Origin: a virus
IMG/VR virus record: IMGVR_UViG_3300022890_000041
Coordinates: 1-45,694 of that record
DNA length: 45,694 bases
Reading direction: 5' to 3' (one strand)
The position numbers and the translations under genes are program-made. How positions within the stretch are numbered: the first letter of the stretch is position 1; every line of letters begins with the position of its first letter. The notes below the pieces were generated by a model that searched no databases, was not told the DNA's origin, and saw only the letters and a program-made list of their open reading frames with translations. Positions 64 to 42,547 of this stretch are shown here, piece by piece.

Positions 64-684
64 TTAATTACCTCCGTAAAATTGTTTAAAGTCTTTCAAA
101 CTGAACACTGCCTTATTCCCATACCATGGTATAACCCTCTTCAGGTTATTACATTTGAAATCATCACGATGGTCAAACTCGTACAATATCGGTAACAGTT
201 GTTCTAACCGTTTATCAGTCAGGAAAGCTATCCAGACCATACTGAACGATTTCTTCCAATAGATGATATTATGTCCAACCTCATACTTATGTTTCATGAT
301 TTTATCCCTTAACCGTATCAAGTTGTACCATACCGTCTCAGAGATTGTTGTGTCAGCCAATTCACCAGCATAATTCCTCAGGTACCAATATTGTATCTCG
401 ATCGTGAACGGAATTAACTTATACTTCATCTTCTTCATCTCCCAACCATTAACACCTTTAACGTACTGTTTACTGGCAAAGGAGTAATTGTTGTTGACTG
501 TTTGTTGTTCATGTTTCTTAATAATCTTGAACACTTTAACCCCTAACTGTTTAAGGTATAACCTCTTCGGCCTCCGTTTGAATGATTTCTCTTTAGTGAT
601 ATCGAATGGTACTGCCTTCTCAATACCTCTTGTCTTGTATGCCTTTGACACTTTATCATTGTAACATCCTTTCTTAGTAGCAAT
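64..684 (-). CDS. Hypothetical basic protein, probable ATT start
   Basis: I do not recognise this protein of about 206 residues. It is basic in the first half (KRRPKRLYLKQ) and aromatic-rich in the second half, with no clear motif. No ATG occurs before codon 87 or so. The GTG at 693-691 is part of the Shine-Dalgarno sequence GAGGTGAT itself and so is an unlikely initiator. The ATT at 684-682 lies 7 bases after GAGGT, like the ATG of the gene upstream, whose leader is almost identical (GAGGTGATAGATAATG). The upstream gene stops at 692-690, so translation is probably coupled. It is the last gene before the promoter at 46-53. Confidence 0.6.
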   Translation of the reverse strand: MATKKGCYNDKVSKAYKTRGIEKAVPFDITKEKSFKRRPKRLYLKQLGVKVFKIIKKHEQQTVNNNYSFASKQYVKGVNGWEMKKMKYKLIPFTIEIQYWYLRNYAGELADTTISETVWYNLIRLRDKIMKHKYEVGHNIIYWKKSFSMVWIAFLTDKRLEQLLPILYEFDHRDDFKCNNLKRVIPWYGNKAVFSLKDFKQFYGGN

Positions 685-689
685 ATCTA

Positions 690-1145
690 TCACCTCAATT
701 CATTATATATTCCTAATGATTCTTTTAAAAGTTTATATTTTTTAAAAGTTAATAATATTATTTGAAACAATGATAATCTCTTATATATGAATCCATCAAA
801 CAATATCTCACGTTGACAACTTAAACAAAAGTCCCATTTCAAAAACATTAAAGTACCATAATGTTTAATTCTTTCATATCTCCAAACATTATCTGCCATT
901 CGTATTCGTTTATGGTATGTATTCTTGCTTTTACAATGTGGACATATATCGTAAGGATATATTATCATATCTACAACATATAATATCTTATACCATTTAC
1001 TAGAAAATATAACTCCTGGCGTTAATTTATATCTACCACTGTTATCATCATCTGGATCATACATTTGATTTAATTCTTTAACTGTGTATGGTCGTTTTTC
1101 TTTTACTGCTTTCTTCCAAAATCCTAACTTCTTTTCATTTGCCAT
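690..1145 (-). CDS. Zinc-ribbon hypothetical protein
   Basis: 151 residues. Two CxxC pairs (CPHC near residue 70 and CLSC near residue 106) probably bind one zinc ion. The remainder is basic with a hydrophobic C-terminal helix. The start has a good Shine-Dalgarno (GAGGT, 8 bases before ATG). The family is not recognised. The gene is AT-rich and uses mostly AGA for arginine, unlike the gene after it, so it may be a later acquisition. A nucleic-acid-binding role is possible only by analogy with other viral zinc ribbons. Confidence 0.65.
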   Translation of the reverse strand: MANEKKLGFWKKAVKEKRPYTVKELNQMYDPDDDNSGRYKLTPGVIFSSKWYKILYVVDMIIYPYDICPHCKSKNTYHKRIRMADNVWRYERIKHYGTLMFLKWDFCLSCQREILFDGFIYKRLSLFQIILLTFKKYKLLKESLGIYNELR

Positions 1146-1151
1146 TATCTA

Positions 1152-1541
1152 TCACCTCAATGTTCTTGCGTTAATCTTACAATTAATTAATCTGTTATAC
1201 GACCTATCATCAAACAATACATCCATCTCAAACTGTAACTTAGCCTCATAATAATTCATCTCAGACTTAGTTTTACATAATCTAACTATTTCTCTGGAAA
1301 AGTTCCAATCACCGAACAATTTAACATCATTAGTTAACTCTTCACAAGAACCATAATACGTCTGCCAGTCAGATTCCTTCTTAACCCATCTTCTTCTTTT
1401 CTTACCTTTCAATGGTTTCTTTTTCTCAATCTTCCAAAACTTCTTCTGACCAATGTAATATCTCTGATTAGATATGTTTGTTATGATATAAACGAACCCA
1501 GTATACTTGTCTATGTCTTTAATAACTCCTTCCCATATCAT
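1152..1541 (-). CDS. GIY-YIG endonuclease, SegE-like
   Basis: 129 residues covering one GIY-YIG nuclease domain with no separate DNA-binding domain. The N-terminal FVYIITN and the following YYIGQKKFW form the GIY-YIG core. ESDWQTYYGS, YYEAKLQFE and a final YN(R) match the arrangement in the phage SegE-type family, in which a glutamate binds the metal ion and an asparagine completes the site. Such proteins cut DNA and are often free-standing homing or host-DNA-degrading nucleases. The gene is preceded by GGAGG 10 bases before ATG. There is no interrupted host gene next to it, so a mobile role is not shown. Confidence 0.75.
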   Translation of the reverse strand: MIWEGVIKDIDKYTGFVYIITNISNQRYYIGQKKFWKIEKKKPLKGKKRRRWVKKESDWQTYYGSCEELTNDVKLFGDWNFSREIVRLCKTKSEMNYYEAKLQFEMDVLFDDRSYNRLINCKINARTLR

Positions 1542-1544
1542 AGT

Positions 1545-1637
1545 TCATACTCCTCCTCTTATCTTACAATAACCATCATCACCTTTATGACAATAGCTAT
1601 CCCAATAATACACACACCCATCACAGTCATTGTTCAC
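1545..1637 (-). CDS. Cys-rich miniprotein (candidate)
   Basis: A 30-residue reading frame with the pattern CDGC-x7-C-x6-C, typical of small zinc-binding miniproteins. It would start at GTG 1637-1635, just inside the end of the preceding gene, and has no separate Shine-Dalgarno, so it would depend on translational coupling. The pattern resembles the 42-residue Cys protein at 9580-9708. The cysteine spacing supports it as real, but the length and GTG start leave doubt. Confidence 0.4.
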   Translation of the reverse strand: MNNDCDGCVYYWDSYCHKGDDGYCKIRGGV

Positions 1638-1782
1638 TATCATCGTTAAAGTCACACTTAGGACAAATCTTCTTAGCGATAGTCTTAGCTTGGAACCGTT
1701 GCCTACACATGATACAATCCCTTAATATCTTAATCTTATCCACTGTGGGCCAGATTGATTTACTTCTATGCTTATTTCCCAT
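1627..1782 (-). CDS. Small two-CxxC zinc protein
   Basis: 51 residues from the ATG at 1782 (M-G-N-K-H-R-S-K). An ATG further upstream at 1824 is open in the same frame, but it lies inside the 31-residue acidic gene and has no Shine-Dalgarno. CIMC and CPKC pairs with basic spacers suggest a zinc-stabilised fold, probably nucleic-acid binding. It overlaps the gene upstream by 11 bases, as many genes of this arm do. Confidence 0.6.
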   Translation of the reverse strand: MGNKHRSKSIWPTVDKIKILRDCIMCRQRFQAKTIAKKICPKCDFNDDSEQ

Positions 1783-1867
1783 CTTCTTCCTTCTCCTCTT
1801 CATCATCATCCAAAAGCCATTCATCTAACGGTTTATTCTTCATCTTATCCTTATACAAGTCATTCAT
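1772..1867 (-). CDS. Acidic 31-residue protein
   Basis: A short frame with a clear Shine-Dalgarno (GAGGT, 7 bases before ATG). The product is mostly charged, with a run of aspartate and glutamate at the C-terminus. It follows the primase-like gene directly and overlaps the start of the zinc protein at 1782. The good ribosome-binding site and close packing are the main support. Function unknown. Confidence 0.5.
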   Translation of the reverse strand: MNDLYKDKMKNKPLDEWLLDDDEEEKEEDGK

Positions 1868-1872
1868 TTAAA

Positions 1873-2397
1873 TTACCTCTCTCGTATTAATGTCTTAAGG
1901 TTACCTGTTTTCCAATGTGGTGCATCTTCTAAAGCTATCATACATTTATCATTATACTTCTGCATATCACACCCGAACTCATCAATAACAGTCTCCCTTA
2001 ACTGTTCCCTGGTTCGTCTCCTTAAATAAGCCAGTTTCCGTATAAACACATGCACATGGTACCCTCTGGATCCTGTACTGTATGACTTATATGGTAATCC
2101 AGTCTTATCCAGAGCAGTATATATCTGATCCAGTTTAAACCCATAATAATGGTTAGGAGGGAATATTGTATCTGCAAACTCATATTCAATGTCAAATATC
2201 AGTTCACATTTCATTATTGATCTATGGTTAACATGTTTAAGTAACCATAGGCCATCCTCAGTTGACCATAAGTCTATCACTTTACTATGTCGTGTCCAGA
2301 TATGATCTCCTACCTTATTCTTGAACGATTTAGCCACCTTAATAGTGCTATCGTACTTGTTACAGATATACTGTAAATATGCTTGTTTATCTTTCAT
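1873..2397 (-). CDS. Archaeo-eukaryotic primase (PriS-like) catalytic domain protein
   Basis: 174 residues. LIFDIE near residue 66 matches the metal-binding DxD/E motif of archaeo-eukaryotic primases, and STGSRGYHVHVF near residue 107 matches the second motif (sxH) that contacts the nucleotide. ALEDAPHWKTGNLK near the C-terminus resembles the conserved tail of archaeal small-primase-like proteins. It is much shorter than full PriS, so it is a minimal catalytic core. It would synthesise primers at viral forks, consistent with the nearby ATPase and SSB-like genes. Its codon use is of the richer-GC class. The family assignment is from motifs; activity is inferred. Confidence 0.65.
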   Translation of the reverse strand: MKDKQAYLQYICNKYDSTIKVAKSFKNKVGDHIWTRHSKVIDLWSTEDGLWLLKHVNHRSIMKCELIFDIEYEFADTIFPPNHYYGFKLDQIYTALDKTGLPYKSYSTGSRGYHVHVFIRKLAYLRRRTREQLRETVIDEFGCDMQKYNDKCMIALEDAPHWKTGNLKTLIRER

Positions 2398-2603
2398 TTT
2401 AATTTTTCCTTAATATACTTTTTAACATCGTTCCAATATAATAATATAAATCTTAAAACATATAATATGCTTGATACAATCAACAAAATTAAACTTGCTT
2501 TGTAATGAAAATAATCTATCAAGATTACTTGAATTGTGTATGATATAACAAATATTAAAAAACCCACTTTATTATATTGAATAACTAAATCCCATATAGT
2601 CAT
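2394..2603 (-). CDS. Small membrane protein, two helices
   Basis: 69 residues with two hydrophobic segments (about 13-30 and 36-56) and a short lysine-rich end. It overlaps the start of the primase-like gene by four bases and its own start overlaps the stop of the zinc protein upstream. It is AT-rich compared with the primase gene. Family and role unknown; small membrane proteins in early viral arms sometimes alter host envelope functions, but nothing here shows that. Confidence 0.55.
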   Translation of the reverse strand: MTIWDLVIQYNKVGFLIFVISYTIQVILIDYFHYKASLILLIVSSILYVLRFILLYWNDVKKYIKEKLK

Positions 2604-2737
2604 TTTAGATCTTTATATATTGTGTATGATGATGCAGTGAAATTATCTATTGAACTAAGATAACCACATTCACCATTATCACAATAATGACTAAACTTAT
2701 TCTCTTTCATTCGTTTTTTACAATAACCACAGATCAT
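2600..2737 (-). CDS. Zinc-ribbon miniprotein
   Basis: 45 residues with CGYC near the start and C-x4-C (CDNGEC) after about 13 residues, a compact zinc-binding pattern. ATGA overlaps join it to the genes on both sides (start with the stop at 2734-2736; stop with the next start at 2601-2603), showing it is part of a coupled string. Function unknown. Confidence 0.55.
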   Translation of the reverse strand: MICGYCKKRMKENKFSHYCDNGECGYLSSIDNFTASSYTIYKDLK

Positions 2738-2895
2738 TTTCTAAACCTGGGATCATACGATTTAACATATTCTCCAGTATTAGTCATAAACTCATCTTCA
2801 AAAGATAAATTCAATTTTCTTAAAAATAATCTAAGTATATTTTGATTATATTTACTTAACTGTTCAATATTTTTAATCATTATTCTTTGTTTCAT
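2734..2895 (-). CDS. Hypothetical small basic protein
   Basis: 53 residues from ATG 2895 (M-K-Q-R-I-M), chosen because AAGGTGGTGG lies just upstream and the start overlaps the stop of the membrane protein gene. A longer in-frame start at 2946 falls within that gene and has no ribosome-binding site. No motif recognised. Confidence 0.5.
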   Translation of the reverse strand: MKQRIMIKNIEQLSKYNQNILRLFLRKLNLSFEDEFMTNTGEYVKSYDPRFRK

Positions 2896-3026
2896 ATTAA
2901 CCACCACCTTATTATTATTACCACTAAATATATAACTATAAAACATAATATGTACTGGATTATTGGAATATATTTTAACAATCCTCTTGGATCTTTAGCA
3001 AATATATGTCCTTTCTTTTCAGTCAT
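2892..3026 (-). CDS. Single-pass membrane miniprotein
   Basis: 44 residues: a short polar N-terminus (H-I-F-A-K-D-P-R-G) followed by one long hydrophobic stretch from about residue 20 to 38 and an R-W-W end. It sits between the PAPS-reductase-like gene and the 53-residue gene, with a four-base overlap to the latter. Only a weak Shine-Dalgarno is visible. Function unknown. Confidence 0.45.
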   Translation of the reverse strand: MTEKKGHIFAKDPRGLLKYIPIIQYILCFIVIYLVVIIIRWWLI

Positions 3027-3046
3027 TTTAAATAACCACTTCTTTT

Positions 3047-4003
3047 TTACTCGTTATATACATTGATCTTACATTCCCTTAATAATTCACCGATTATAGT
3101 TTTATTGATATATAAATCGTATAACTTTGGGTGAGTCGAATGCATAATTTGAAATCTATTCATCCCTTTTTCTAAATGTACGCCAAACGGACATCCAACA
3201 CAACCAGTTCTTTTATAACCTGTTGTTTCTAATTTTCTTGCTCTATGTAATTCTTCAAATCCCATAGAAGGAATAATTTCTCCATAAGCTTTACTCAAAT
3301 CTAATTTATATTTTAAAGTATATTGCAAAATATCTTGTTCAGTCCAAAAAGATAAAGGTGTTGATCTAATAAATGAGCCTTCAAAAACATTACATCCTTC
3401 CTTGAGATATTTAAATTTCCTCTGATTAGATTCTTCAACCATTGTGCCTATAAATGGTTTTAATCCTGTTTCTTTCTCAAATTTTTTAAATGGTTTTTTT
3501 TTCAATTCATTACAACATTTATCTGAACATTTAAATTTTGAATCTACAAGCCATTGCCATTTTTTAGATATGCAAAATTGAGTTTTAGTACCATCTTCCA
3601 TATATCCAGTCATCAAACGCTTAATAAGTTTTTTTGACTTCCCCCTTTGTACTTGATGTATGAAGTGAGCTTGTTGTTTTGTAGGAAATGGAATAAAACC
3701 ATCTTTTAATAACTTAAAAAATGTTGTTTTTGGTTTTACAAATTCAATATTATCTATTCTTTTGAGTTGTTCTGTGTTCTCTGGGAAACCTACACCTGTC
3801 AGAACATGCATAGCTTTCACATCAGGATAGATACTTCTAACCAAATGTAATAAAACATTAGAATCTTTTCCATCTATTGCTACATATACTTGTCCATTTA
3901 ACTTCTCATAAAAAGTTGTTATTCTCCTTAATGACATATTAATTTTAGCCTGTAAAGGAAGACTCTGTCTTTGTGCGAGTTGCCAATATTTTATATGTTC
4001 CAT
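3047..4003 (-). CDS. PAPS reductase / adenine nucleotide alpha-hydrolase-like protein
   Basis: 318 residues. VYVAIDGKDSNVLLHLV near residue 40 is the PP-loop of the phosphoadenosine-phosphosulfate reductase family, which binds ATP or PAPS. The usual S-G-G-K-D-S is changed to I-D-G-K-D-S, so the loop is altered. CSDKCCNELKKKP near residue 155 and GCVGCPFG near residue 268 are the cysteine motifs of this family, the latter likely holding iron-sulfur or zinc. Phage members are common and their role is usually unknown; relatives include the DndC-type enzymes that add sulfur to DNA. No other sulfur-modification genes are visible here. AT-rich, AGA-using class. Confidence 0.75.
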   Translation of the reverse strand: MEHIKYWQLAQRQSLPLQAKINMSLRRITTFYEKLNGQVYVAIDGKDSNVLLHLVRSIYPDVKAMHVLTGVGFPENTEQLKRIDNIEFVKPKTTFFKLLKDGFIPFPTKQQAHFIHQVQRGKSKKLIKRLMTGYMEDGTKTQFCISKKWQWLVDSKFKCSDKCCNELKKKPFKKFEKETGLKPFIGTMVEESNQRKFKYLKEGCNVFEGSFIRSTPLSFWTEQDILQYTLKYKLDLSKAYGEIIPSMGFEELHRARKLETTGYKRTGCVGCPFGVHLEKGMNRFQIMHSTHPKLYDLYINKTIIGELLRECKINVYNE

Positions 4004-4015
4004 TTTCTCCCTCAG

Positions 4016-4162: not shown

Positions 4163-4325
4163 ATTCAATTACCTCTTCTTTGTTTTCTTTTGTCTTGATA
4201 TACTATTTTGTATCTTAGTATGTATCAACTAAATTAATCATTTGATGATTGTTTATAACCAACTTTCATCCTCATCCTGTTCAATCTCATCTCCTTCCAG
4301 AGCCATCCAACCCCACACTATCCAA

Positions 4326-6398: not shown

Positions 6399-6422
6399 AC
6401 TAACTTCACCTACTATTTTTTA

Positions 6423-7634: not shown

Positions 7635-7636
7635 CT

Positions 7637-9394: not shown

Positions 9395-9577
9395 TTATTT
9401 GTTTTCTTGAAAATAACACTCTTTACAGTATTCATTAAACTTATCAGATTCAAGATCAATAAAATCATTAATAAGAGATTCTTTATTGTCCTCTATCCAA
9501 ACATACATACATTCCTCTCTTTGTTCCTGCATCTCTTCTCGTATGATCTCGTCTTTATGGTCTTGTTCTAAAGTAAT
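9395..9577 (-). CDS. Acidic 60-residue protein, probable ATT start
   Basis: The frame is open from ATT 9577-9575 to the stop at 9395-9397, with no ATG, GTG or TTG before an internal ATG at 9532. GGAGGAGG lies just upstream of the ATT, in the last codons of the preceding gene, whose stop is two bases before the ATT. The product is acidic and helical, with three cysteines (C-M-Y; C-K-E-C) near the middle and end. If ATT is not used the product would be 45 residues from ATG 9532, which has a poor ribosome-binding site. Confidence 0.45.
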   Translation of the reverse strand: MTLEQDHKDEIIREEMQEQREECMYVWIEDNKESLINDFIDLESDKFNEYCKECYFQENK

Positions 9578-9579: not shown

Positions 9580-9708
9580 TTAATCCTCCTCCATGTTTTT
9601 ATATGAACTGCACCCGTTATCCGTAATTTTAGGGTAATAATTTTGTTTAATGCATAATCCGTCTATGTTATCAATCCAATAACAATTTTTACATTTCTTT
9701 AATAACAT
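9580..9708 (-). CDS. Cys-containing miniprotein
   Basis: 42 residues with CKNC, then a cysteine after 9 residues and another after 13, a pattern seen in small zinc or disulfide-type viral miniproteins and similar to the frame at 1545-1637. AGAGG lies upstream of ATG. Its last codons form the Shine-Dalgarno of the ATT-started gene that follows. Function unknown. Confidence 0.5.
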   Translation of the reverse strand: MLLKKCKNCYWIDNIDGLCIKQNYYPKITDNGCSSYKNMEED

Positions 9709-11225: not shown

Positions 11226-11465
11226 TTAATCCTCCTCAATGAAATCTATTAATTCTTGTAATGATTCAATAGGATTACAAGATTTACAGTAATAATAAGG
11301 TACATCTTTCTCTATTAATTCAATGTCTACACCATCTTCTAATAATTGATTCGTTCTATTTACATTAACTGATCCATCACAAACATACCAACCATCATAA
11401 ACGTATAATATACTCTTTTGATGTTCACTACCATATAAACAATTAATTTCTTTTTCTTCTTTCAT
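11226..11465 (-). CDS. Zinc-binding protein, DVPYYYC family copy 2
   Basis: 79 residues, acidic at both ends. EKDVPYYYCKSC matches KDVPYYYCKRC of the protein at 9699-9878; the other likely metal ligands are C in INCLYG and C in YVCDG. The duplicated motif in two leftward genes suggests a shared partner or role. Preceded by AGGTGAT. Confidence 0.55.
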   Translation of the reverse strand: MKEEKEINCLYGSEHQKSILYVYDGWYVCDGSVNVNRTNQLLEDGVDIELIEKDVPYYYCKSCNPIESLQELIDFIEED

Positions 11466-14746: not shown

Positions 14747-14776
14747 ATGGGTGAGATAGGATTAAACATGAGTTAG
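14747..14776 (+). other. Nine-codon mini-ORF overlapping the terminase start
   Basis: ATG to TAG, encoding M-G-E-I-G-L-N-M-S. It begins immediately after the previous stop and spans the ATT at 14761 in another frame. It could be a coupling leader, or the true terminase start separated by one lost base. See the terminase entry. Confidence 0.3.
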
Positions 14777-16335
14777 ATTATAATAATGAGATAACCAGGT
14801 CAGACCTTGACTTAGAAATGTATGATAATAAGTTTAAGACTGTTAACGAGTATTATACCATTGATAAACCTGATAAAGTTCAACAATACGAGATATTATC
14901 AGATCCAACCACGTTCGGGTACATGCATCTGACTGACGGTGAAAACACTGCCTTAAAACTATATTCTTATCAAGATTTAATAATAAACGATAGACATCGG
15001 TTCATATACTTCCGAGCAGCGAACCAGATTGGGAAATCGTTCTTATTCAATGTTAAAGCTGTACATAACCTTATCTTGGACCATGGTCATAGTCATAACG
15101 AAGCTATAGTATCGAAATCATTACCACAGTCAATCCATCAGATGCGTAGGATAAAAGGGATGTTAAACTCTATGCGTGACATTGACTGGAAAGCTAGTAA
15201 AGGTGGCAGTGATAGTATGTCGGTTGTTACTGTTGACATTAAAGATGACCAAGGGAAAGTTAAATATACGAACCTCTTAATCTGTGCTCCGTGCACTGAA
15301 GGTCTTCTGGGGTATGATTTACATGAACTTAACCTGGACGAGTTTGAGTTTTGGGAAGTGGACCTTAAATATTTCTTTAACCAGATTGCTCAACCGAGGA
15401 CATATAAGACGAAAGGTCGGATATTTATCATGAGTAACCCGAATGGTCAAGATAACTTCGGTTCAGCCCTGGAGAAACAAGTTACACCGAAAGGCGACAA
15501 GAAATGGCATTTATATGTATACAATTATTTAGACTGTCCAGGGAACACTCAGGACGAATATGATCAATTAAAGGGTGAACTTAGTAGGCAAGAGTTTGAA
15601 TCCACTGTTGACGCTAAGAGATCTATATCGGACAGGAACTATTTCTCACCTGACGAGATTGACCGTAGTAAAGATACTAAATTACGAGAGATAGATATGA
15701 TTGGAAAACAACCGTTCGCATTTTTAGATGTAGGTGCAAAACATGATAGGTCTGTGTTTGGTTGTGGTTTTATTGAACCTGATAAAGATAATCCACAATT
15801 TGTACATTTATATCTTCCGATTATTCATGTATACCCTGAAGGTTATCCATTGACAAGGGTTGTTGGTGTAGAAAATATTGATGATTCTGACGGTTGGCAC
15901 CATGAGAAGTCTGTTAAAGAACATTTAGGGGAATGGTCAAAGAATGGTATATATCCTGTGTTTGGGTATGATATAACAGGCAATGAAGGGATGCGAGCAT
16001 TATTTGAATCTGTTGGAATTGTTAATGCTATTGATGTAGTGTTCAGTGGTCCGTCTAAGTCAGGTTATTATCAAAGATATAAATATTTCATGGAGAAAGG
16101 ACTATTACATCGTATACCACATGAACAATGGGAGAAAGAGGCAGGAACATTGGTAGTTACTAAAGGTATTAGAGGTTATTTACTTATTAACGCTGCGAGT
16201 GCTGTCAGTGTGGCAGGGAAATCCATGGATGCTAAATTAAAGAAGATACCTGATGATTGTATGGATATGACTGCAGGCTTTATACAACTTGCGGATCCTA
16301 AGGATACTATCATTCCTACATTAAAACTATTTTGA
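14761..16335 (+). CDS. terL: Terminase large subunit (ATPase-nuclease), probable ATT start
   Basis: About 524 residues from ATT 14761, or 505 from ATG 14818. It pumps DNA into proheads. FRAANQIGKSFLF is the Walker A region; LNLDEFEFWEVD is Walker B with the catalytic acidic residues; VFGYDITGNEG and PDDCMDMTAGF supply aspartates of the C-terminal RNase H-like nuclease, with FLDVGAKHDRS the first. The frame is open upstream to ATT, which lies 8 bases after GGGT, as for normal starts here; ATG 14818 has no Shine-Dalgarno. The nuclease half (from about 15710) looks more AT-rich than the ATPase half, hinting at mosaic origin. Confidence 0.85.
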   Translation: MKHELDYNNEITRSDLDLEMYDNKFKTVNEYYTIDKPDKVQQYEILSDPTTFGYMHLTDGENTALKLYSYQDLIINDRHRFIYFRAANQIGKSFLFNVKAVHNLILDHGHSHNEAIVSKSLPQSIHQMRRIKGMLNSMRDIDWKASKGGSDSMSVVTVDIKDDQGKVKYTNLLICAPCTEGLLGYDLHELNLDEFEFWEVDLKYFFNQIAQPRTYKTKGRIFIMSNPNGQDNFGSALEKQVTPKGDKKWHLYVYNYLDCPGNTQDEYDQLKGELSRQEFESTVDAKRSISDRNYFSPDEIDRSKDTKLREIDMIGKQPFAFLDVGAKHDRSVFGCGFIEPDKDNPQFVHLYLPIIHVYPEGYPLTRVVGVENIDDSDGWHHEKSVKEHLGEWSKNGIYPVFGYDITGNEGMRALFESVGIVNAIDVVFSGPSKSGYYQRYKYFMEKGLLHRIPHEQWEKEAGTLVVTKGIRGYLLINAASAVSVAGKSMDAKLKKIPDDCMDMTAGFIQLADPKDTIIPTLKLF

Positions 16336-22825: not shown

Positions 22826-23473
22826 ATGGTAACAACACGTACAACTGTAATATGTATCTCGATGATACTATTGTTCATTCTTATGGTAGGTTGTAGTTGT
22901 ACCCCTATAGAACCAGACTTAGATCCAGACAATTCCAGTACAGGTGCAGACATACTTAATCCATTAATACTTACTAAAGATGTAGTGTTTACTTCAAAGA
23001 ATACGTATGATGTTTCTGGATTAAATTTTAGATGTAAACAAACCACAAAAACATATAATAGAACAAGTATGGGTAAAGTTAATACCATGATATGTTATGA
23101 CGTGTATACAGTTGTAAAGTGTGATGAACGGGATGCAATATTAAATGTTACCACTAAAGAATGTTATATCATGAAAGAAGAGTGTGGTGAGTTTGAAACA
23201 CTTAAACCTGTGATAGAACAGTATAACATTTCAACATGTGTTAAAGATACTAAAGAGATCTTGTATCATGATACAATCTTAAAGTATGGTCAAAAGAATA
23301 TTGAATGTTCAATGTTAAATAAAGATACAATAATATGTGATGATATGAGAGGTAAAGATGGGAATGGAGATGGTATTTGTCAATCAGGAGAAACGTGTCA
23401 TACTTATAAAATAGAAGAAAATAATATCCAACTTGATAAAATTAAGAATGGTAACGTGGTATTAGCAAAATGA
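22826..23473 (+). CDS. Predicted lipoprotein
   Basis: 215 residues. MVTTRTTVICISMILLFIL followed by MVGCSC is a lipoprotein signal with a lipobox (V-G-C), so the mature protein starts at the cysteine near residue 23 and would be lipid-anchored on the cell surface. The rest has many cysteines (at least ten) and a DGNGDGIC segment resembling an EF-hand-type calcium loop. It lies among other secreted proteins. Function not known; superinfection exclusion or surface display are possibilities. Confidence 0.55.
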   Translation: MVTTRTTVICISMILLFILMVGCSCTPIEPDLDPDNSSTGADILNPLILTKDVVFTSKNTYDVSGLNFRCKQTTKTYNRTSMGKVNTMICYDVYTVVKCDERDAILNVTTKECYIMKEECGEFETLKPVIEQYNISTCVKDTKEILYHDTILKYGQKNIECSMLNKDTIICDDMRGKDGNGDGICQSGETCHTYKIEENNIQLDKIKNGNVVLAK

Positions 23474-26400
23474 ATAAAATAATGGTATTATGTTTATGTA
23501 TTTTCTTATTCATTCCTATTGTATTTTCTGATACTTGCGATACAACATATTTAGATGATAATACTATAGTACATTATTCGTTTGAAGAAACATCTAAACC
23601 GTATATAGATGATACAGAAACAATTAATTTAACCCTTGGTACGGATCCAGAGAGAATAGATGTAAGTGGTAGTTTAAATTATACTTATGGACAGAATTTT
23701 ACAGGGTCAGACGAATCATACAGCACAGCTAACACATTATTAAAATATGATGTATTTAGTTTTTGTTATTGGTATAGAGCTGATGATATAACTGGTTCAA
23801 ATATGGGTTTAGCAAGTTATCAAACAACACAGTATGGGCCTGGTTGGCGAATTAATATGCATAAAAATGACGGATCTATTGTATTTGATGTTTATGATGG
23901 TTCTGCCAATAGAGATGGAAGTTATAATACTGTTGGTTCTATATCTGAAGATGTTTGGTATCATGCCTGTAATGTTTGGGATGGTGATGATGGTTTTACA
24001 TATATTAAAGGATCTTCAAGTATACATTATGGCGATGCTCATGATACAATAGCTTATGCTGCAACTCAAGGGTTATATGTTGGTAACACTGAGGCATTTT
24101 TTAGTACAGCAGATTGGTCAGTGGCAGGTTGGGTTTATTTTGATGTAGCTTTAAATGAAACATGTAGAAGTTATGTACGAAGTAATACTTACCCTTACAG
24201 TGATGTGGTACCACCAGTTATATCTAACATTAATTGTACTTCATGTGACGCAAATAATATAACCGCAGATAGAACACCAACGTTCACGCTTGATACAGAT
24301 GAAAGTTCTAACTGTGGCATATCAAGTCAAAATAGTAGTTACACTAACTGTACAACGACAGGAGTACTTAATCATACTTGTACTATCCCTGTTGTAGATC
24401 AACTTGATTATGGTATTGTTAATGTGTTTTTTAATTGTACTGACGGTTCAAGTAATAGTAGAACAACAAGTGTAGAGATTGAAGTTCTATTAATCAATCT
24501 AACTTTCGTATCACCAACACCAGCTAACAATTCAGTAATATATGTAAATACAACCGAAATAAAGATTAATATTACAAATGCTACCACATTAGAACAATTC
24601 ATTTTTAACTGGAATGGAACAAACGAAACACAAGTTAAGGATATAGAATTTAATTTTACTGAAGAAAGTTTAACAGCATTAAGTTTTTATAATGGAACAG
24701 ATTTAATTGAATTATATAATGAAAGTTTATTAGTGTCATATAATTTTGACAATATTTCTAACTTAGGTGAAAGTGATTCTACTGTTGTTGATGTATCTGG
24801 AAATATGAACGCAACAGTGATAGGTGCATCTTTTACAACTTCTGGAAGATATAATGGTGCTTATAGTTATGACGGAACAGATGATTATATGAGTGCAGCA
24901 CAGACAGATTTAGATTTTAAAGTTGGACAAGAATGGACAATATCAACATGGGTTTATCGTAAAGATGATATAAGTAGTGGAGTGTTAGCTATATGGGGAC
25001 CAATCGGTGTTGTGGATAGAAATTGGTTATTACATTATGATGGCACAGAGTATGTACTTGGAATAAGAGGTGATGCAAATGCTCCTATGGGTAGTACACC
25101 ATTAAATGAATGGCATCATTTATTATCAAGTTATAATGGTACACATTTACATACTTATGTTAATGCTGTTTTTAATTCATCAACAGCTACAACTGTAAAT
25201 GGTTTAGGTGCTAATGAACCTTTAGAGATTGGAAGAAGGGGTGGGAGTAATATTTATGCATTTAATGGTTCTATAGATGAACTTCGTATTTGGAATAGGT
25301 CTTTCACTTCTAATGAAATTCAACAAATATATCTATCTAACTTAAATAAATTTGATACAGATGAATGGACATTTTATACTAATCAAACATTAGATTCTTA
25401 TCAAGTTAATATTAGAGGAAATAATAAAATAGATTTTGATAAGATAAGTTCAAGTAATTATTTATTTTCAACTAATAAGACAGTAGTTGAAGGTAATTAT
25501 ACATTTCAAGGGTTTGCTCAAGATAATTTAAGTAATTGGTTTAATACAGAAGAACGAATATTAAGAGTATTAGATCCTGCACCACAGATTCAGTTTCAGT
25601 CTCCTACACCAACAAACGGTTCAACAGTTATAACTGATGAAGTTACAATAAATGTTTCTATAACAGAATCAACTTTACAACAGTTTGTTTATAATTGGAA
25701 TGGAACAAACTATACTTCACCGATTTATAATTTATATGACAATGATATAGATAATTGTTCAGTTATGGATTATACAGATACTTCATTACACTTAGCATTG
25801 AACTTTGATAATATAAGTTCATTAGGTGAAACAACATCTCACCTTTTTGATTTAAGTCCAGCAGGTAATAATGGAACAATCTCAGGTGGGGTTGTTTATA
25901 ATACGTCAGGTTATTATGGACTTGCAATGGAATTTGATGGTGTAGAAGATTGTATTAATGTTGGGGATGTTATTAATAATCTTTCATTCACAAAGACTGC
26001 ATGGGTTAATAGACAAACAGGTGTGTTTGCTAATAACATTATTTCAGGTGGTGGAAACGGAGATATATTATGGGCTACATCATCTTATAGTTATAGATTA
26101 ACAGCAGGACATGGTTCTTCTTTAAATATTGTTCAAGATCCTATTCCATTAGAAGTTGAAACATGGTATCATGTAGCAGTATCGTATGATGGTGATGGAA
26201 TGTATTTATATAAAGATGGTAAGTTAGTTGATAGTGCAACAGGAGTAACACTTGATAGTGATCCAGGCGTTACATATGTTGGGTGTTTTGCAGGTAATAA
26301 TAGTTGGAATGGGCGTATAGATGAACCAAGAATTTGGAATATATCTTTATCTGAGACAGAGATTAAACAAATATATTTATCAACTCTTAATATGTATGAA

Positions 26401-28113
26401 TCTAATGAATGGGAATTTTCTACTACACAACACAATTTAATAGAAGGCAATTATACGTTTCAAGCATATGCAACTGATTCAAATGATAGATTAAATAGTA
26501 CTGAAGAAAGGCAAGTAACTATACAAGCATTAGACCTTGTTATTGGTTATCCAACAGAATATACGCTTTATCAGAGACATAATGATACGCATGGTGAAAT
26601 AAAGATTCAAGGAATATATGGGACAACAAACAACGCCACATCAATAGATGCAAGATTTAATGGTGGTGATTGGGTAACAATAGATGCATCACCTTCAGGT
26701 AATTCATTCATAGGATATTTAAATGCTACAATAGGAAACGGTACATTAGATATTGCTTATGGAAATAATTATTCAATTAATACATCAGTTTATAATATTT
26801 CTATTGGTGATTTATATGTTGTTGGCGGTCAATCTAATGCATATGGTACAGCATTACATTATCAGAATTTAAGTGATTCAAATAATTATTTATCAACAGT
26901 TTTTATTTATGATAATACTTGGAAAATAAATAATGATCCAACAACAGCACTTGGAGTTACAAATGGTTGGGGTTCAGCATGGCCTAATGTTGCAAACTAT
27001 GTTATACAGAATCAAAGTGTTCCTGTATCGTTTATAGCAGCAGCAACTCCTGGAGCACAATTATTTGAATGGATTAAAGGTGGTGAAGATTATGATAATA
27101 TGATTGAAATGACAGCAAAAGCAACTAATGGCACAATGAAAATTAAATCATATTTATTTTTTCAAGGTGAGAATGATATGTTGAATGGATGGAATGAAGG
27201 AACAGAATATCACGATAATTTAACACAGATGGCAGATGATTTTATTAATGATACTGATTGCATTGCTGATACAATTATAGTAGGTCAGACTAACAGATAT
27301 TCTTATCAAGGAACAAGTGCAACAAGACCTCATCAAGACAACGTTAGACAAGCACAACAGGATGCTTGGGGAGAAACTAATAACATTTCTAAAGGGCCAG
27401 TCACATATGATATAAATTTAAGTATTGATGGATTACATTTCAGAACAAATTCAGAGATGCAGAATTTCAGTTTAAGATGGTATTATTCAATGTTAGATGT
27501 TTTATATAGTGATTCAAGTTTCGATAATCCAATACCTACAATTTTTAATTTGATTGATAATGGTTCGAATTCAATATTAAGAATTACATATGATCAAAAT
27601 ATAGTAAGTAGACATTGGAATGGAAGTACAAATACGTTAGCAAAAGGATGGTTAATATATAATTTAACAGGTAGCACAAATTATTCTGATTCTGATGTTT
27701 TAAAAACAAACATAACAGCGAATGTAATAGATGTTGTGTTTGATTATGATGCAGTTATTCCTTATGGTTCAAGATTGTATTATGGAAGTTTTAATGATGG
27801 ATATAATAAATATGTTGTATCTGGATTAACAACAGAACTTCCTAGTAGATTAATATTTAATGAAACACTTAATGTTACTGTATCAGACACTTGCACATAT
27901 TCAGGTTCAGGTGATTGGACTGTGTTATGTACCGATAACTGTACCATAACAACTAACACAGACACAACAACAAACGCATTAATTATTGATGGTGCTGTTG
28001 GTTACTTTGAACTGTTAGCTAATGTAACATGTGAGATGTTTGCAATAGAGGAAGGGTGTCAGTTCAGGAACAAGATGAACGATAATAAACGGTTAGCGGT
28101 GAAGGAAGATTAA
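23470..28113 (+). CDS. Giant secreted LamG/esterase protein
   Basis: 1547 residues. A signal peptide (1-20, ending VFS-D) is followed by a LamG/ConA-like domain (about 25-235), an Ig-like spacer (about 240-400), a second LamG (about 418-622), another spacer, a third LamG (about 771-977), and a SASA-type carbohydrate esterase domain (about 1110-1340). Its GQSNA has the nucleophile S1122; QGENDM is at about 1232-1237; DGLHF holds D1320 and H1323 of the catalytic site. It would bind and de-acetylate glycans of the host surface layer. The Ig/LamG style (SPTPANNS...NWNGTN) resembles DPANN surface proteins. AT-rich, sequon-rich. C-terminal end is cysteine-rich. Confidence 0.7.
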   Translation: MNKIMVLCLCIFLFIPIVFSDTCDTTYLDDNTIVHYSFEETSKPYIDDTETINLTLGTDPERIDVSGSLNYTYGQNFTGSDESYSTANTLLKYDVFSFCYWYRADDITGSNMGLASYQTTQYGPGWRINMHKNDGSIVFDVYDGSANRDGSYNTVGSISEDVWYHACNVWDGDDGFTYIKGSSSIHYGDAHDTIAYAATQGLYVGNTEAFFSTADWSVAGWVYFDVALNETCRSYVRSNTYPYSDVVPPVISNINCTSCDANNITADRTPTFTLDTDESSNCGISSQNSSYTNCTTTGVLNHTCTIPVVDQLDYGIVNVFFNCTDGSSNSRTTSVEIEVLLINLTFVSPTPANNSVIYVNTTEIKINITNATTLEQFIFNWNGTNETQVKDIEFNFTEESLTALSFYNGTDLIELYNESLLVSYNFDNISNLGESDSTVVDVSGNMNATVIGASFTTSGRYNGAYSYDGTDDYMSAAQTDLDFKVGQEWTISTWVYRKDDISSGVLAIWGPIGVVDRNWLLHYDGTEYVLGIRGDANAPMGSTPLNEWHHLLSSYNGTHLHTYVNAVFNSSTATTVNGLGANEPLEIGRRGGSNIYAFNGSIDELRIWNRSFTSNEIQQIYLSNLNKFDTDEWTFYTNQTLDSYQVNIRGNNKIDFDKISSSNYLFSTNKTVVEGNYTFQGFAQDNLSNWFNTEERILRVLDPAPQIQFQSPTPTNGSTVITDEVTINVSITESTLQQFVYNWNGTNYTSPIYNLYDNDIDNCSVMDYTDTSLHLALNFDNISSLGETTSHLFDLSPAGNNGTISGGVVYNTSGYYGLAMEFDGVEDCINVGDVINNLSFTKTAWVNRQTGVFANNIISGGGNGDILWATSSYSYRLTAGHGSSLNIVQDPIPLEVETWYHVAVSYDGDGMYLYKDGKLVDSATGVTLDSDPGVTYVGCFAGNNSWNGRIDEPRIWNISLSETEIKQIYLSTLNMYESNEWEFSTTQHNLIEGNYTFQAYATDSNDRLNSTEERQVTIQALDLVIGYPTEYTLYQRHNDTHGEIKIQGIYGTTNNATSIDARFNGGDWVTIDASPSGNSFIGYLNATIGNGTLDIAYGNNYSINTSVYNISIGDLYVVGGQSNAYGTALHYQNLSDSNNYLSTVFIYDNTWKINNDPTTALGVTNGWGSAWPNVANYVIQNQSVPVSFIAAATPGAQLFEWIKGGEDYDNMIEMTAKATNGTMKIKSYLFFQGENDMLNGWNEGTEYHDNLTQMADDFINDTDCIADTIIVGQTNRYSYQGTSATRPHQDNVRQAQQDAWGETNNISKGPVTYDINLSIDGLHFRTNSEMQNFSLRWYYSMLDVLYSDSSFDNPIPTIFNLIDNGSNSILRITYDQNIVSRHWNGSTNTLAKGWLIYNLTGSTNYSDSDVLKTNITANVIDVVFDYDAVIPYGSRLYYGSFNDGYNKYVVSGLTTELPSRLIFNETLNVTVSDTCTYSGSGDWTVLCTDNCTITTNTDTTTNALIIDGAVGYFELLANVTCEMFAIEEGCQFRNKMNDNKRLAVKED

Positions 28114-28235: not shown

Positions 28236-30380
28236 ATGCCTAAAATGACTAAAGAAACAATTAGAAAGGAACAATTCTGTAAGGTTGGTGGATTTGAGTT
28301 TAAAGATTTAGATGATGATAAAATCATTGGTGGATTCATAGCTACCACACACCTTGATAGTGGGTTTGAACATCCAGAGTTAGGTTGGGTTTGTGATAAG
28401 ATTGATAAAGAGTTACTCGGTGAATGGGCAACAGAACTTAACCAAGGTATACCAAGAGCAAACAAAGTTAGTATACATCATGATCGGAAAGATAAGATTG
28501 TGGCTGGTGTAGCACAAAAGAATACTGCATCAATCATAGAATTACCAGACGGTGAGTACGGATTATATGTTGATTCTTTAATAGATAGTACACATCCAGA
28601 TTATAGTACAACAGACCATAGGCTAGGGAATGGAACCCTTGACAGTTTCAGTATTGAGTTTTGTAACTCAGAATTTACAACATACAGTAAAGATGGGTTT
28701 GTTGAACGACATTTACATCCTGGGACGGAGTTGTTAGGTTATACTTTAGCATCCAGGCCAATGAATGAATACGCTGTACGTATTAAAGAAGTTAACATGA
28801 ATCAAAATAAAATAGGCATTAAGGAGGAAAATAAAATGACTGAAGATAAAATTAAAGAGTTAGAAGCAAAAGAGAAAGAATTAACAGAGAAGGCTGATGC
28901 TCTTGCAAAGAAGGAACAGGAACTTAAAGAAGAAGCAGAGAAACCTGCTGAAGAAGAACCTACAGAAGAAGAACCTAAAGAATCTACAATTTCAAAAGAA
29001 GATCTTGCATTACTTAAAGAGATTAAATCAATGAAAGCTTCCGAAGCTAAAGAGAAAGAAATGAAAGAGTTCGTTAAACAAGCTAAAGAAGAATTGAAAG
29101 AATCCCTTGACAAGGTTGATGTTAAGAGTAAGGTCCAAGTTAAAGATACTGAAGATTTATCTGTTGAAGTTAAAGAAATCAAAGAATACGCTGACACAGT
29201 TATTGTTGAAGCTAAAGAACACAAAGATGGTAGAGTAACTTTCGAGAAAGAAGGTAAAATAATCTCTGTTGACAAGATGTGGCATGAAGCTGGTCAGATG
29301 GCTGATAAGTTAGGATTAACTGTTGATGGTCTTAAGATGGATGCACAGAAATGTGAACATAGAAAGTTTGATAACTTTACTACAAACGGTAAGATGCTTG
29401 AAACTAAAGGATTAGGTATTGACACTAACCAAGGTTCAATCAATTATTTAAGTGCTGTTGAACTTGCTGATGTGTTTGATCCTGTTATTCATAACGCACT
29501 TAACCAGGAAACTGTCACATGGAACGTATTATCTAAAGAAGATAAAAGTATGAAAGGTAATAACCAAGTCCAGTTCAAAGTTAAGACTGCAGCTAACACA
29601 ACTACTGGTGCATACTTAGGTAACGCTGTCACAACAGGTAACGTAACAAGAATCAACTGTCAAACCAAGTTTAAGAAGTATCAAGTTGGTGTTGAAGTTG
29701 ACGGTGACATGATTGCTGCTGCACGTGGTGGTCCAATCGGTGACGTATTTTCTAACGAAGTACGAGATTCAACCATTGACTTAATGGCAGATATTAATGT
29801 AGATTTGTATGCTGAAGTTGGTGCTGAAACTGCTGCTGGTGTGATTGGGTTTGAATATATAACTGACAGTGCAGGTAACACTACATTATACAGTTATACA
29901 AGGTCAAGTACCACAGACAGTGCTAACGTGTTCCTTAACCCGTCCAGTGCTGGTGATACATACATTAACCAAGCTAGTGCAGACATTACGTTAAGTAACC
30001 TTAGAGCTGCTAAAAGGCAAGCTTTAAAGAACGGTGCACAGATTGGGAACTTAGTATACTTCACTGACCATATCCAAGGCGATAAGTTTAGAGGAATATA
30101 TGACGCTGCTCAGAGAAACACACCTACATCTACACGATGGGGTTTCGAAGGAAGGCCAGAGTTTGACGGTATACCAATCTTTGAAGATAAAGATTGTAAC
30201 GATGATGACTGGTTCCTTGTTGATCTTACCACACACAAGATTGCTATGTGGGTTCCACCTACATTAGAAATGTTAGGTAAAGATTCTGACAGTGAGAAAG
30301 GGTTCATCAAGACATACTTTGCAACATATAATACATTCATCAGACGTATGGTGCAGATTTATGGTTGTGCAACAACTTAA
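28236..30380 (+). CDS. Prohead protease, scaffold and major capsid fusion protein
   Basis: About 714 residues from ATG 28236; an in-frame GTG at 28194 lies in the hairpin loop and is unlikely. The N-terminal domain (to about 180) is an HK97-type (S78-like) prohead protease, with H in SIHHDRKDK and S in TLDSFSIEF as the probable catalytic pair. About 200-330 is a Lys/Glu-rich coiled coil, the scaffold. The rest is an HK97-fold capsid domain rich in Ala, Thr and Gly. The protease would cut scaffold from capsid during maturation. No Shine-Dalgarno lies before the ATG, but an internal one occurs at 28820 (see next entry). Confidence 0.7.
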   Translation: MPKMTKETIRKEQFCKVGGFEFKDLDDDKIIGGFIATTHLDSGFEHPELGWVCDKIDKELLGEWATELNQGIPRANKVSIHHDRKDKIVAGVAQKNTASIIELPDGEYGLYVDSLIDSTHPDYSTTDHRLGNGTLDSFSIEFCNSEFTTYSKDGFVERHLHPGTELLGYTLASRPMNEYAVRIKEVNMNQNKIGIKEENKMTEDKIKELEAKEKELTEKADALAKKEQELKEEAEKPAEEEPTEEEPKESTISKEDLALLKEIKSMKASEAKEKEMKEFVKQAKEELKESLDKVDVKSKVQVKDTEDLSVEVKEIKEYADTVIVEAKEHKDGRVTFEKEGKIISVDKMWHEAGQMADKLGLTVDGLKMDAQKCEHRKFDNFTTNGKMLETKGLGIDTNQGSINYLSAVELADVFDPVIHNALNQETVTWNVLSKEDKSMKGNNQVQFKVKTAANTTTGAYLGNAVTTGNVTRINCQTKFKKYQVGVEVDGDMIAAARGGPIGDVFSNEVRDSTIDLMADINVDLYAEVGAETAAGVIGFEYITDSAGNTTLYSYTRSSTTDSANVFLNPSSAGDTYINQASADITLSNLRAAKRQALKNGAQIGNLVYFTDHIQGDKFRGIYDAAQRNTPTSTRWGFEGRPEFDGIPIFEDKDCNDDDWFLVDLTTHKIAMWVPPTLEMLGKDSDSEKGFIKTYFATYNTFIRRMVQIYGCATT
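28836..30380 (+). CDS. Nested scaffold-capsid product from an internal start
   Basis: In frame inside the fusion gene, AAGGAGGAAAATAAAATG places a consensus Shine-Dalgarno 8 bases before ATG 28836. Translation here gives 514 residues: scaffold (coiled coil about 5-120) and capsid domain, without protease. This would supply many more capsid than protease copies, like lambda C/Nu3 in principle. Upstream protease codons end with an out-of-frame TAG just before the Shine-Dalgarno, so the fusion may have come from loss of a stop. Confidence 0.6.
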   Translation: MTEDKIKELEAKEKELTEKADALAKKEQELKEEAEKPAEEEPTEEEPKESTISKEDLALLKEIKSMKASEAKEKEMKEFVKQAKEELKESLDKVDVKSKVQVKDTEDLSVEVKEIKEYADTVIVEAKEHKDGRVTFEKEGKIISVDKMWHEAGQMADKLGLTVDGLKMDAQKCEHRKFDNFTTNGKMLETKGLGIDTNQGSINYLSAVELADVFDPVIHNALNQETVTWNVLSKEDKSMKGNNQVQFKVKTAANTTTGAYLGNAVTTGNVTRINCQTKFKKYQVGVEVDGDMIAAARGGPIGDVFSNEVRDSTIDLMADINVDLYAEVGAETAAGVIGFEYITDSAGNTTLYSYTRSSTTDSANVFLNPSSAGDTYINQASADITLSNLRAAKRQALKNGAQIGNLVYFTDHIQGDKFRGIYDAAQRNTPTSTRWGFEGRPEFDGIPIFEDKDCNDDDWFLVDLTTHKIAMWVPPTLEMLGKDSDSEKGFIKTYFATYNTFIRRMVQIYGCATT

Positions 30381-35118: not shown

Positions 35119-35146
35119 ATAGAACTAAAACAAGGAGATGAATAGA

Positions 35147-37231: not shown

Positions 37232-37246
37232 TGAGGATGATTAAAG

Positions 37247-40600: not shown

Positions 40601-42498
40601 TTGCTGCATCCTTATCGAAATTTAATAATGAAGATACCAGTGATAATACCACGTTCACATCATCAAGCACAACTGAAGCAACCAACATTAAAGTGTTAGA
40701 TGGGACAACGGTAACATCAGCATTACTTAATGTGTCAGGGTATAATTATACAACAGCTAAAGAATATAATCTTGTTAGTACAAGTGGTACATTTGATAGT
40801 GCGGCAATTAATGCTTACGATGGTAGTTGGACTACATATACTACAACTGAGAGTGGTGGAACAGCAAACATATATTTTAATTATACTAAACCAACAGGAT
40901 ATTTAAATCAATCAACATGGGAAGTAAAAGATTTTGATGATAGAGTTAATCTTACAATACCTGGAACATGTTTAGCACAAACAGATTTACAAGTTAAAGT
41001 TAACATGGAATCATTCAGTTCTGAGATTTATACAGATTTAAATAGTGCTGAAAGTCATGAAAATAATTGGACTTTACGTGGAAGGGCTTATTGGGCAACA
41101 AATCAGATTCGTGCAGAAAACCTTCAGTATGTTGGTGACGAATATTATTCGTACATAACAAAATCAATAAATTTAACATCATATGATGATGTAAGTGTAT
41201 CTATTCAAATGAGATATCCACCAGGCACAGTTAAGGGTTCTTTTATGTGTTTTGCATGGTCATGTTTAAGTACAGGGACAGGTTTTACTGCACCATATAG
41301 ATGGGCTACAAATAGTGTTACTGCACAATCTAGATGTATAGAATATGATATACAAGAAAGAGATACATGGTATACAAGAAATCAAGATATATTCGATGCA
41401 ACAATATCTGGAGAGTCTTGTGAAACTCCACCTGAGAATTTTTCAATAGCAGTCTATGGTGATGTACCATTTTCTTATATAATACAATGGAGAAATTTAT
41501 ATATTACAGGTAATGAATTTACTAATGTAACATGGTCATGTAACAATGGTAGTGATTGGATTAATATCAGAGAGAATAGATATAATGGTTCAACATCAAG
41601 TGCGAAAGTGTATGAAGAAACTGTTAACTGGATAAGTTATCCACAAAGTCCGTGGATGGAAGTGGGTACAATAAACGGTACAAGAGATTGGAACTTTACT
41701 GGTGAGTTCAGTGAATCAGATAACCAGTCAAACGATTTCACTGGTAAAATGAATAACTATATCAGTGGTTGTACGTTTGATGATGATGGATTCTGTAGTA
41801 TACCAATAACATTATTCAGTGATGGGATAGGAATACTGGAACTGAAAGATTTACATGTTACATATGATTATGACGTTAATCCAATAACAATAGATAACAC
41901 AGTATTATCAACATATATTACAACATTAAACGGTTTTGGTACTATACCTATTAAGTTTGAAAGTAGTAGCAACGGTACAATACAGATTGATGATTTAAAC
42001 TTTGAATATAAAGGTGGGAATAAGACGTATCAAGTGAAAGCACATAACACTGCATACACCACTAACAAAACATTGAACCTTACATATTATCATAGTAGAT
42101 GGAACTATACTTTACCACCATATATAGATTATCTTGAAGTTATCCCTGATACACCAACAACAGCTAACGTTCAACCGTATGGTCAGAACACAAATTATCC
42201 AATACTAAATTTCACTTCTTTGGCATACGGTGGGAAGACGTTTAACTTTACCATGTTATCTAATGAAACATACAGTTGCGTTAACACGTCATACTCTAAC
42301 ACTACAACTAACCCAAGTAACTTGTTAGGTTCAAGTATATGGCAAGACCTGAAGCTTGATGTGGATTACCTGGAGACAGTCGGTCTTTGGATGTGGTTCG
42401 ATTACGGTTGTAACTTTACATCATGGAACCTCTGGCAACCTGACTGGTACTTTAGAGCTTGTTGTGATGGTTGTGTATGTAGTGAGAGTACGAGTTAA
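37687..42498 (+). CDS. Giant LamG/beta-helix surface or tail-tip protein
   Basis: 1603 residues. An N-terminal hydrophobic helix (about 8-24) may anchor or secrete it. A LamG/ConA-like domain (about 200-393) follows, then a right-handed beta-helix region (about 400-830: FYFSNTGSDLELCNIL, TSGDTAYWARGSSWVMGS), then several beta-sandwich repeats rich in sequons, and a tip with clustered tryptophans and cysteines (residues 1560-1603, CCDGCVCSE). Such architecture suggests glycan binding and possibly cleavage at the host surface. The section encoded by 40495-41590 is more AT-rich than its flanks, suggesting an acquired domain. It lies at the normal place for a tail-tip or fibre gene. Confidence 0.6.
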   Translation: MVEKKYYGVFLMLVILSTSLYFVFDDKAKILIENTRTQYFVDNRGSWDLAATEYVNLYDGTKKMRAKSRDVIYWNTAKYVYAQRTSTWKDNITTIQTYTFSIDSKDITQFPIDNEFNCINCEGKIVHYEIRDILYMGVTKTITSLFKFGNHMSIEWRPGYYYAKVFQQKVASDKIIIKYRPTTSNETYYVRLFDPPGEGTTNLVSYNSFETGTRDDWGSYPIDVQFGAKGANGYIGDSFYLDGNNDAFNYTTLSLANFNHFTVNAWVDPDNNNFKNIMEEASMFRMRIDSGDTFICRVYNASATAFSTSAIAISGDYEMYSCVYNVTHICAYINGTGEQCTAVSGALATPTTELTVGRQPPSSNYLEGDIDEISFWNSSAVDLAAMYTDYENTIRPQDTGNFYFSNTGSDLELCNILTKPCDTPARFDNLTTWTSGDTAYWARGSSWVMGSNQAFSLSDATAGNRKTFAAYGSGDKPLFIGGPTTNFTATSVADEYLTTVTSSLDVGHIYCTDALVIGNKESTAGAVTINGEFFYNGTGDDKTLTHSSTDLTTVYNCRIAQEDNFIEISNLNHWNFYNLSFKYGGQHGFGDSGSTDITLDGIDMAFIGGAYQATTVRYGNGVQFGLEQNDILVQNCNITQVYDAAYTSQLWNTGGQHTLRNVTYRNNIGALSAYPFEYFNSFSTSTTADLTIDHNTFVDAGLGWADTFGNDGRGIRASGTPSATTGFNMTNNIFDNTTLYLIDFSSDADWHTDEMNIDNNLYWAKATNFGRWNGSTKVAFSNYQSDSGKDGNGDYADPEFTDKAIANYQPKAGSTACLMSSTGSYVGALPCAVTPSGGAINLTVNGSLTDLDIELATPVTVNTSINGGATVCIDVNHSSYGVNYSCGTTSTSFSLEIDSFRRTTFNDSTTAKNVTYTTGALANQTVYINVHQYDEIDFLLFDITGFISGGSYTSDVKIYINDTLSNNLGDIFAASLSKFNNEDTSDNTTFTSSSTTEATNIKVLDGTTVTSALLNVSGYNYTTAKEYNLVSTSGTFDSAAINAYDGSWTTYTTTESGGTANIYFNYTKPTGYLNQSTWEVKDFDDRVNLTIPGTCLAQTDLQVKVNMESFSSEIYTDLNSAESHENNWTLRGRAYWATNQIRAENLQYVGDEYYSYITKSINLTSYDDVSVSIQMRYPPGTVKGSFMCFAWSCLSTGTGFTAPYRWATNSVTAQSRCIEYDIQERDTWYTRNQDIFDATISGESCETPPENFSIAVYGDVPFSYIIQWRNLYITGNEFTNVTWSCNNGSDWINIRENRYNGSTSSAKVYEETVNWISYPQSPWMEVGTINGTRDWNFTGEFSESDNQSNDFTGKMNNYISGCTFDDDGFCSIPITLFSDGIGILELKDLHVTYDYDVNPITIDNTVLSTYITTLNGFGTIPIKFESSSNGTIQIDDLNFEYKGGNKTYQVKAHNTAYTTNKTLNLTYYHSRWNYTLPPYIDYLEVIPDTPTTANVQPYGQNTNYPILNFTSLAYGGKTFNFTMLSNETYSCVNTSYSNTTTNPSNLLGSSIWQDLKLDVDYLETVGLWMWFDYGCNFTSWNLWQPDWYFRACCDGCVCSESTS

Positions 42499-42499
42499 A

Positions 42500-42547
42500 A
42501 TGACTTATAACAGATTTAAAAAAGAGGTTTGGTTAAAATTGCTGTAG
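42500..42547 (+). other. 15-codon mini-ORF overlapping the tail-hub start
   Basis: ATG to TAG in another frame, encoding a short basic peptide (M-T-Y-N-R-F-K-K-E-V). It begins just after the previous stop and ends seven bases past the ATT start, so it may couple translation, like the nine-codon frame before terminase. Confidence 0.3.

Follow-up and report, generated by a model that had tools for sequence, protein, structure and literature searches.

The window analysed here is the whole IMG/VR record IMGVR_UViG_3300022890_000041, which comprises 45,694 bases with a GC content of 33.6%. Its tailed-virus genes include the terminase large subunit, a weak portal match, a tape measure, a Dit-like protein and a tail hub, and the succession of terminase, portal, capsid, tape measure and hub genes that is a trait of archaeal Caudoviricetes is present. 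The usual gene start in the window is ATG preceded by AGGTGAT or AGGAGG at a spacing of 7-11, with a peak at 9. In four genes, an ATT is found behind the Shine-Dalgarno (SD) sequence (Table 1). These genes encode the terminase, the hub and two proteins without assigned function, and all four sites read as an earlier note on this DNA had described them.

Several other genes were observed in the window. The capsid region encodes a 714 aa protein (28236-30380) that is conserved over its full length in two relatives, G011 and G020, and resembles a protease-capsid fusion. The tail-fibre-like protein encoded at 23470-28113 combines a sialic-acid acetylesterase domain (SASA) with repeats of the Laminin_G_3 type, and the C-terminus of a small protein (44067-44525) matches lectins of the agglutinin/ricin type. 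The closest match of a PAPS-reductase-family gene (3047-4003) is a Clostridioides phage gene with 44% identity, which is odd beside the archaeal features of the virus.

Table 1. Features of the four ATT-initiated gene candidates in the window and of amidotransferase genes in other viruses
Feature	Position	Strand	Remark
Gene without assigned function, 206 codons	64..684	-	opens at ATT 684
ATT of the 684 gene	684	-	reads gaggtgatagat followed by ATT
SD GAGGTGAT of the 684 gene	689..696	-	holds the TGA stop of the upstream gene (692-690) and the unusable GTG 693-691
Small gene without assigned function, 60 codons	9395..9577	-	opens at ATT 9577
ATT of the 9577 gene	9577	-	reads ggaggaggattaaaa followed by ATT
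SD GGAGGAGGAT of the 9577 gene	9583..9592	-	at the extreme end of the upstream gene
Terminase large subunit, 524 codons from ATT	14761..16335	+	PF03237, E=2e-5; phrog_2, E=7e-17
ATT of the terminase gene	14761	+	reads gggtgagatagg followed by ATT
SD GGTGA of the terminase gene	14750..14754	+	sequence
Tail hub/baseplate protein, 486 codons	42538..43998	+	phrog_1887 and phrog_400; HHTV-2 gp51
ATT of the hub gene	42538	+	reads agaggtttggttaaa followed by ATT
SD GAGGT of the hub gene, only 5 nt	42524..42528	+	sequence
Class II amidotransferase of G001	L020:1364-2506		PF13522, E=1e-13; adjoins an amidoligase gene
Amidotransferase start ATT-TGT, coliphages of the kuravirus group	O18-011 (L061:286), EP335 (L077:201), Bas92 (L078:201)		
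Amidotransferase start ATT-TGT, Vibrio phage	VPp1 (L062:188)		
Amidotransferase start ATC-TGT	Klebsiella phage Klyazma (L073:201), Pseudomonas phage IME180 (L074:201)		after GGAGGAT
Amidotransferase start TTG-TGT	TC6 (L081:201)		related to IME180

Probable host and relatives

The host is probably an archaeon, to which no lineage is assigned. This is deduced from four features: the hub protein matches gp51 of the archaeal virus HHTV-2 (E = 4e-5; 31% pairwise identity over 177 residues), several leaderless ATG codons with a TATA-like box about 30 nt upstream are found in the window and in the relative G001, sigma-70-like sites are rarer in the window than in shuffles, and one early protein weakly matches the archaeal primase PriS (E = 0.003). 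The infC-like bacterial setting that the earlier note had in mind does not fit this picture. HHTV-2 (Saparoviridae) shares with the window virus a homologous C-terminal half of the hub (31% identity) and the order of tape measure followed by hub. It differs in its GC content of 66% and in a hub N-terminus that is not alignable, and no AUU start is claimed for it. An alignment of the HHTV-2 hub and terminase N-termini to the window proteins was not achieved. No provirus relative was found in 398 genomes of a single archaeal phylum, that of a Pyrodictiaceae archaeon.

Alignment-based scans yielded three useful relatives. G020 (42.5 kb) carries most structural genes in matching order, its hub, terminase and capsid proteins being 43%, 31% and 30% identical to those of the window. 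The corresponding values for G011 (30 kb) are 32%, 29% and 31%, and the hub of G001 (72 kb) is 25% identical. Single-protein scans of IMG/VR with the terminase, the hub, the 684 protein and the portal returned no relatives.

Enrichment of SD-spaced ATT codons in gene frames

SD matches were scored upstream of every possible start of the 64 genes in our own list. On the scale used for the ATG genes, the spacing is 8 at the 684 gene, 7-10 at the 9577 gene, 9 at the terminase and 10 at the hub. In 6 of the 64 genes, the open frame runs for at least 15 codons past the upstream stop before any ATG appears. Two of these are otherwise explained: in the gene 2734-2946 a TATA-like box lies 32 nt upstream of ATG 2946, and the start of the capsid/protease gene, ATG 28236, agrees with that of its homologues. 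The remaining four are exactly the ATT genes. An ATT within the first 10 codons, preceded by an SD of at least 5 nt at a spacing of 8-10, occurs in 4 of the 64 gene frames versus 2 of 563 shadow frames. With this background of about 0.4% per frame, approximately 0.2 such codons are expected by chance in 64 gene frames. The excess is much larger than chance would give, although the test was designed post hoc, after the ATT sites were known. None of the 64 gene frames has a GTG or TTG placed in this way.

Orphan SDs by gene starts also precede ordinary codons, in genes with a usable ATG. An SD followed by ATT is thus not proof in itself, and the single cases need more support. By codon usage, the leaders at 684, at 9577 and in the terminase gene resemble coding sequence; each score is weak individually, being attained by 5%, 16% and 13%, respectively, of the non-coding stretches that are free of stops. 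The hub leader scores like non-coding sequence, although it is conserved. A first coding-potential test, which was apparently strong, was discarded: its null contained stop codons, and a stop-free null gave a much weaker result.

Taken together with the relatives and phages described below, the window sequence makes it likely that the four genes have their real translation starts at AUU. The earlier note had held that no canonical start lies at a sensible distance; this applies to the hub and nearly so to the 684 and 9577 genes, whereas the terminase has ATG 14818 as a less probable alternative.

The genes at 684 and 9577

In the 684 gene, the first in-frame ATG lies about 80 codons inside, and the only near alternatives are GTG 651 and the GTG within the SD, which the earlier note had placed at 691; this codon occupies 693-691 and hence starts at 693. 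The near alternative in the 9577 gene is ATG 9532, which has no SD. No relatives of the 684 protein were found in the IMG/VR scans and fetched loci, and none of the 9577 protein among the fetched loci, with which alone it was compared. The SD and the absence of good alternatives support the AUU initiation proposed for both genes, and we consider it probable that the 684 gene starts at its ATT and equally probable that the 9577 gene does so. At both sites the SD reaches into the last codons of the gene before it. Such overlap is usual for the tightly packed operons of this virus, and by itself it is no demonstration of the coupled re-initiation that had been suggested.

The tail hub gene

The first in-frame ATG of the hub frame lies more than 110 codons inside. 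TTG 42529 abuts the SD and therefore cannot use it. In the syntenic hub of G020, ATG 28909 occupies the exact column of the window ATT 42538, and the N-termini align without gaps (MAATNFKKIKPNVWIPPIYTANYKITV in G020, (I)AVANIGRIRPRVWVPPIYTSNYKITV in the window). The match of the 13 residues between ATT and GTG 42580 to G020 beats all 20,000 shuffles, whereas the six residues upstream of the hub start show no resemblance between the two viruses. GTG 42580 is excluded as the hub start because conserved residues lie upstream of it. The hubs of G011 and G001 also begin with ATG, at a near-equal distance from the conserved WLP/VFVP motif, and have a similar N-terminal length. AUU initiation at the hub is thus borne out by the comparison with G020, and the start of this gene at ATT 42538, the strongest of the four cases, can be regarded as very probable. 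The earlier note had counted a relative with ATG at the ATT column against AUU initiation; the ATG of G020 marks the column as a start site rather than refuting AUU.

The start of the G020 hub is itself not certain, since a second in-frame ATG (28855), located 54 nt upstream of ATG 28909 and after the upstream gene, would add an 18-codon extension. In the window, a 15-codon frame (42500-42547) opens at ATG 42500, one base past the stop of the gene for a 1603-aa protein, and ends shortly after the hub ATT; the corresponding ATG of G020 is in frame with the G020 hub. Both observations would suit a sequencing or assembly error, in which ATT would stand for a misread ATG or an indel within the six A residues at 42518-42523 would separate the hub from ATG 42500, and the window is a single metagenome assembly. 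However, this explanation requires that four of the 64 start codons were hit independently, the G020 extension is unlike the window sequence upstream of the ATT, and the same AUU arrangement recurs in independent records (G001 and several phages from different laboratories). We regard it as very improbable. Frameshifting or read-through from the upstream frames into the downstream ones would account for the closeness of the ATT codons to upstream stops and for the overlap of the short frame from ATG 42500 with the hub start. It is hardly credible, as no slippery heptamer suits the shift needed at the hub, the SD stands at initiation spacing and the relatives show no fusion of the hub with the gene before it.

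The terminase gene

The least clear case is the terminase, which offers ATG 14818, a codon without an SD, as an alternative start. The 18-residue leader that follows the ATT could not be aligned with G020 (p = 0.97), and the N-termini of the G020 and G011 terminases gave no decision between ATT and ATG. An AlphaFold model of the protein was uninformative (mean pLDDT 38). Because this leader does not align and the terminase of G011 begins at an ATG that lacks an SD, ATG 14818 is a plausible if less probable start. AUU initiation of this gene is somewhat likely, less so than in the other cases.

If the genes started elsewhere, at GTG 651, ATG 9532 and ATG 14818, the SD-ATT arrangements would be coincidental. 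SD-less ATG starts exist in the window virus as well as in the G011 terminase, and from ATG 14818 the window terminase would be similar in length to the latter. For the hub such a reading is excluded by the conserved residues upstream of GTG 42580. For the others, three further SD-ATT coincidences at exact spacing would be required, each against the background of about 0.4%, and GTG or TTG with a good SD is used by no other gene in the enrichment test. Starts at these other codons are thus unlikely, and initiation at AUU is the preferred reading.

Possible mechanism of AUU initiation

To our knowledge, IF3 is absent in archaea. Since the host is probably archaeal, the analogy with infC and IF3 does not carry over. 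In bacteria, IF3 selects against starts with such a mismatch; in archaea this role falls to aIF1 (PMC6237735). A strong SD would position the archaeal small subunit with AUU in the P site, where the initiator Met-tRNA would pair with AUU despite the third-position mismatch, and the protein would begin with methionine. Initiation at AUU would be weaker than at AUG and may lower the output of the few-copy proteins hub and terminase.

Class II amidotransferases as a ruler for near-cognate starts

The catalytic residue of class II glutamine amidotransferases is an N-terminal cysteine, exposed on removal of methionine, of which both the thiol and the amino group are used. As the cysteine must become N-terminal, the codon before it must be the start codon, barring a propeptide. 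The amidotransferase gene of G001 opens with GAGGTGAT-TTAA-ATT-TGT, with a stop directly before the ATT, and its next possible start lies 34 codons inside, past the cysteine. Compared with E. coli GlmS, conserved residues are found at a consistent distance from the cysteine. Other SD-spaced candidate starts were observed in G001 at ATA 68854(+), ATA 71026(-) and ACG 67644(+), with no canonical start nearby; the frame at 71026(-) may encode a terminase with the Walker A-like motif GFRESYKSS. A candidate ATT at 11279(+) of locus L030 likewise has no canonical start nearby.

Of about 330 records for this family in annotated phages, 22 were read. Several have ATT or ATC before the cysteine codon (Table 1), and ATG-TGY prevails among the rest; in a Rhizobium phage the codons are ATT-TGC, yet a canonical codon also lies upstream. 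Relatives differ at the codon before the cysteine (ATC in IME180 and TTG in TC6; ATT in VPp1 and ATG in IME234), which shows that this codon is the start. In O18-011, EP335, VPp1, Klyazma and IME180, the deposited start lies 14 to 58 codons late and removes the cysteine, while the Bas92 record starts at the ATT. When 85,000 cellular genomes were scanned for GGTGAT-N3-6-ATT-TGY-GGN-ATH, there were 14 matches and no convincing amidotransferase start among them. The SD pattern was too strict, as the phage genes carry GGTGG, or GGTGA with a different continuation, and the scan is therefore not evidence of absence.

Because common gene callers take only ATG, GTG and TTG, they truncate or overlook genes that start at AUU. 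This limit is apparently the reason why the annotation of several phages lacks the catalytic cysteine of the enzyme. The class II amidotransferase family thus offers a built-in ruler to count near-cognate starts in viral genomes.

Comparison with known near-cognate starts

The literature searched, which includes few of the subscription journals, contained nothing on AUU as a start codon of archaeal viruses or of phage amidotransferases, and the only AUU start in archaea found in it is that of an Asgard tubulin gene (PMC13394414). The earlier note had called the repeated use of AUU in one virus new to its author. Within this literature the statement holds for archaeal viruses; it does not extend to AUU and AUC in general, which also occur in phage amidotransferases and the Asgard tubulin. 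As far as checked, the probable recurrence of AUU starts in a single archaeal virus is new; it would be a variant of the near-cognate initiation already known and not a mechanism of its own. A tentative and wider reading, which we consider possible rather than probable, is that AUU replaces GUG and UUG as the regular second-choice start of the host's archaeal lineage and is part of a wider, mostly unannotated use of AUU, AUC and AUA in bacterial and archaeal viruses.

The classical near-cognate starts are those of infC in E. coli (AUU) and Streptomyces (AUC), which are often misannotated by gene callers (PMC5472188). Like the window genes, infC has a near-cognate AUU start, in a single gene; it is bacterial and autoregulated through IF3, whereas here several genes of one virus with a probable archaeal host are concerned. 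AUG, GUG and UUG are the only start codons given in a review of initiation in archaea (PMC7531240), and a 2026 paper inferred an ATT start for the tubulin gene of Kariarchaeaceae (Asgard) from fold completion, alignment and RBS distance (PMC13394414). This archaeal start was inferred, as here; it belongs to one host gene and not to a virus. The phage amidotransferases differ from the window genes in their bacterial hosts, in the single gene per phage examined and in lying outside the window. They share with the window genes an SD and, in the named cases, the lack of a canonical start, the ATT or ATC standing right before the catalytic cysteine.
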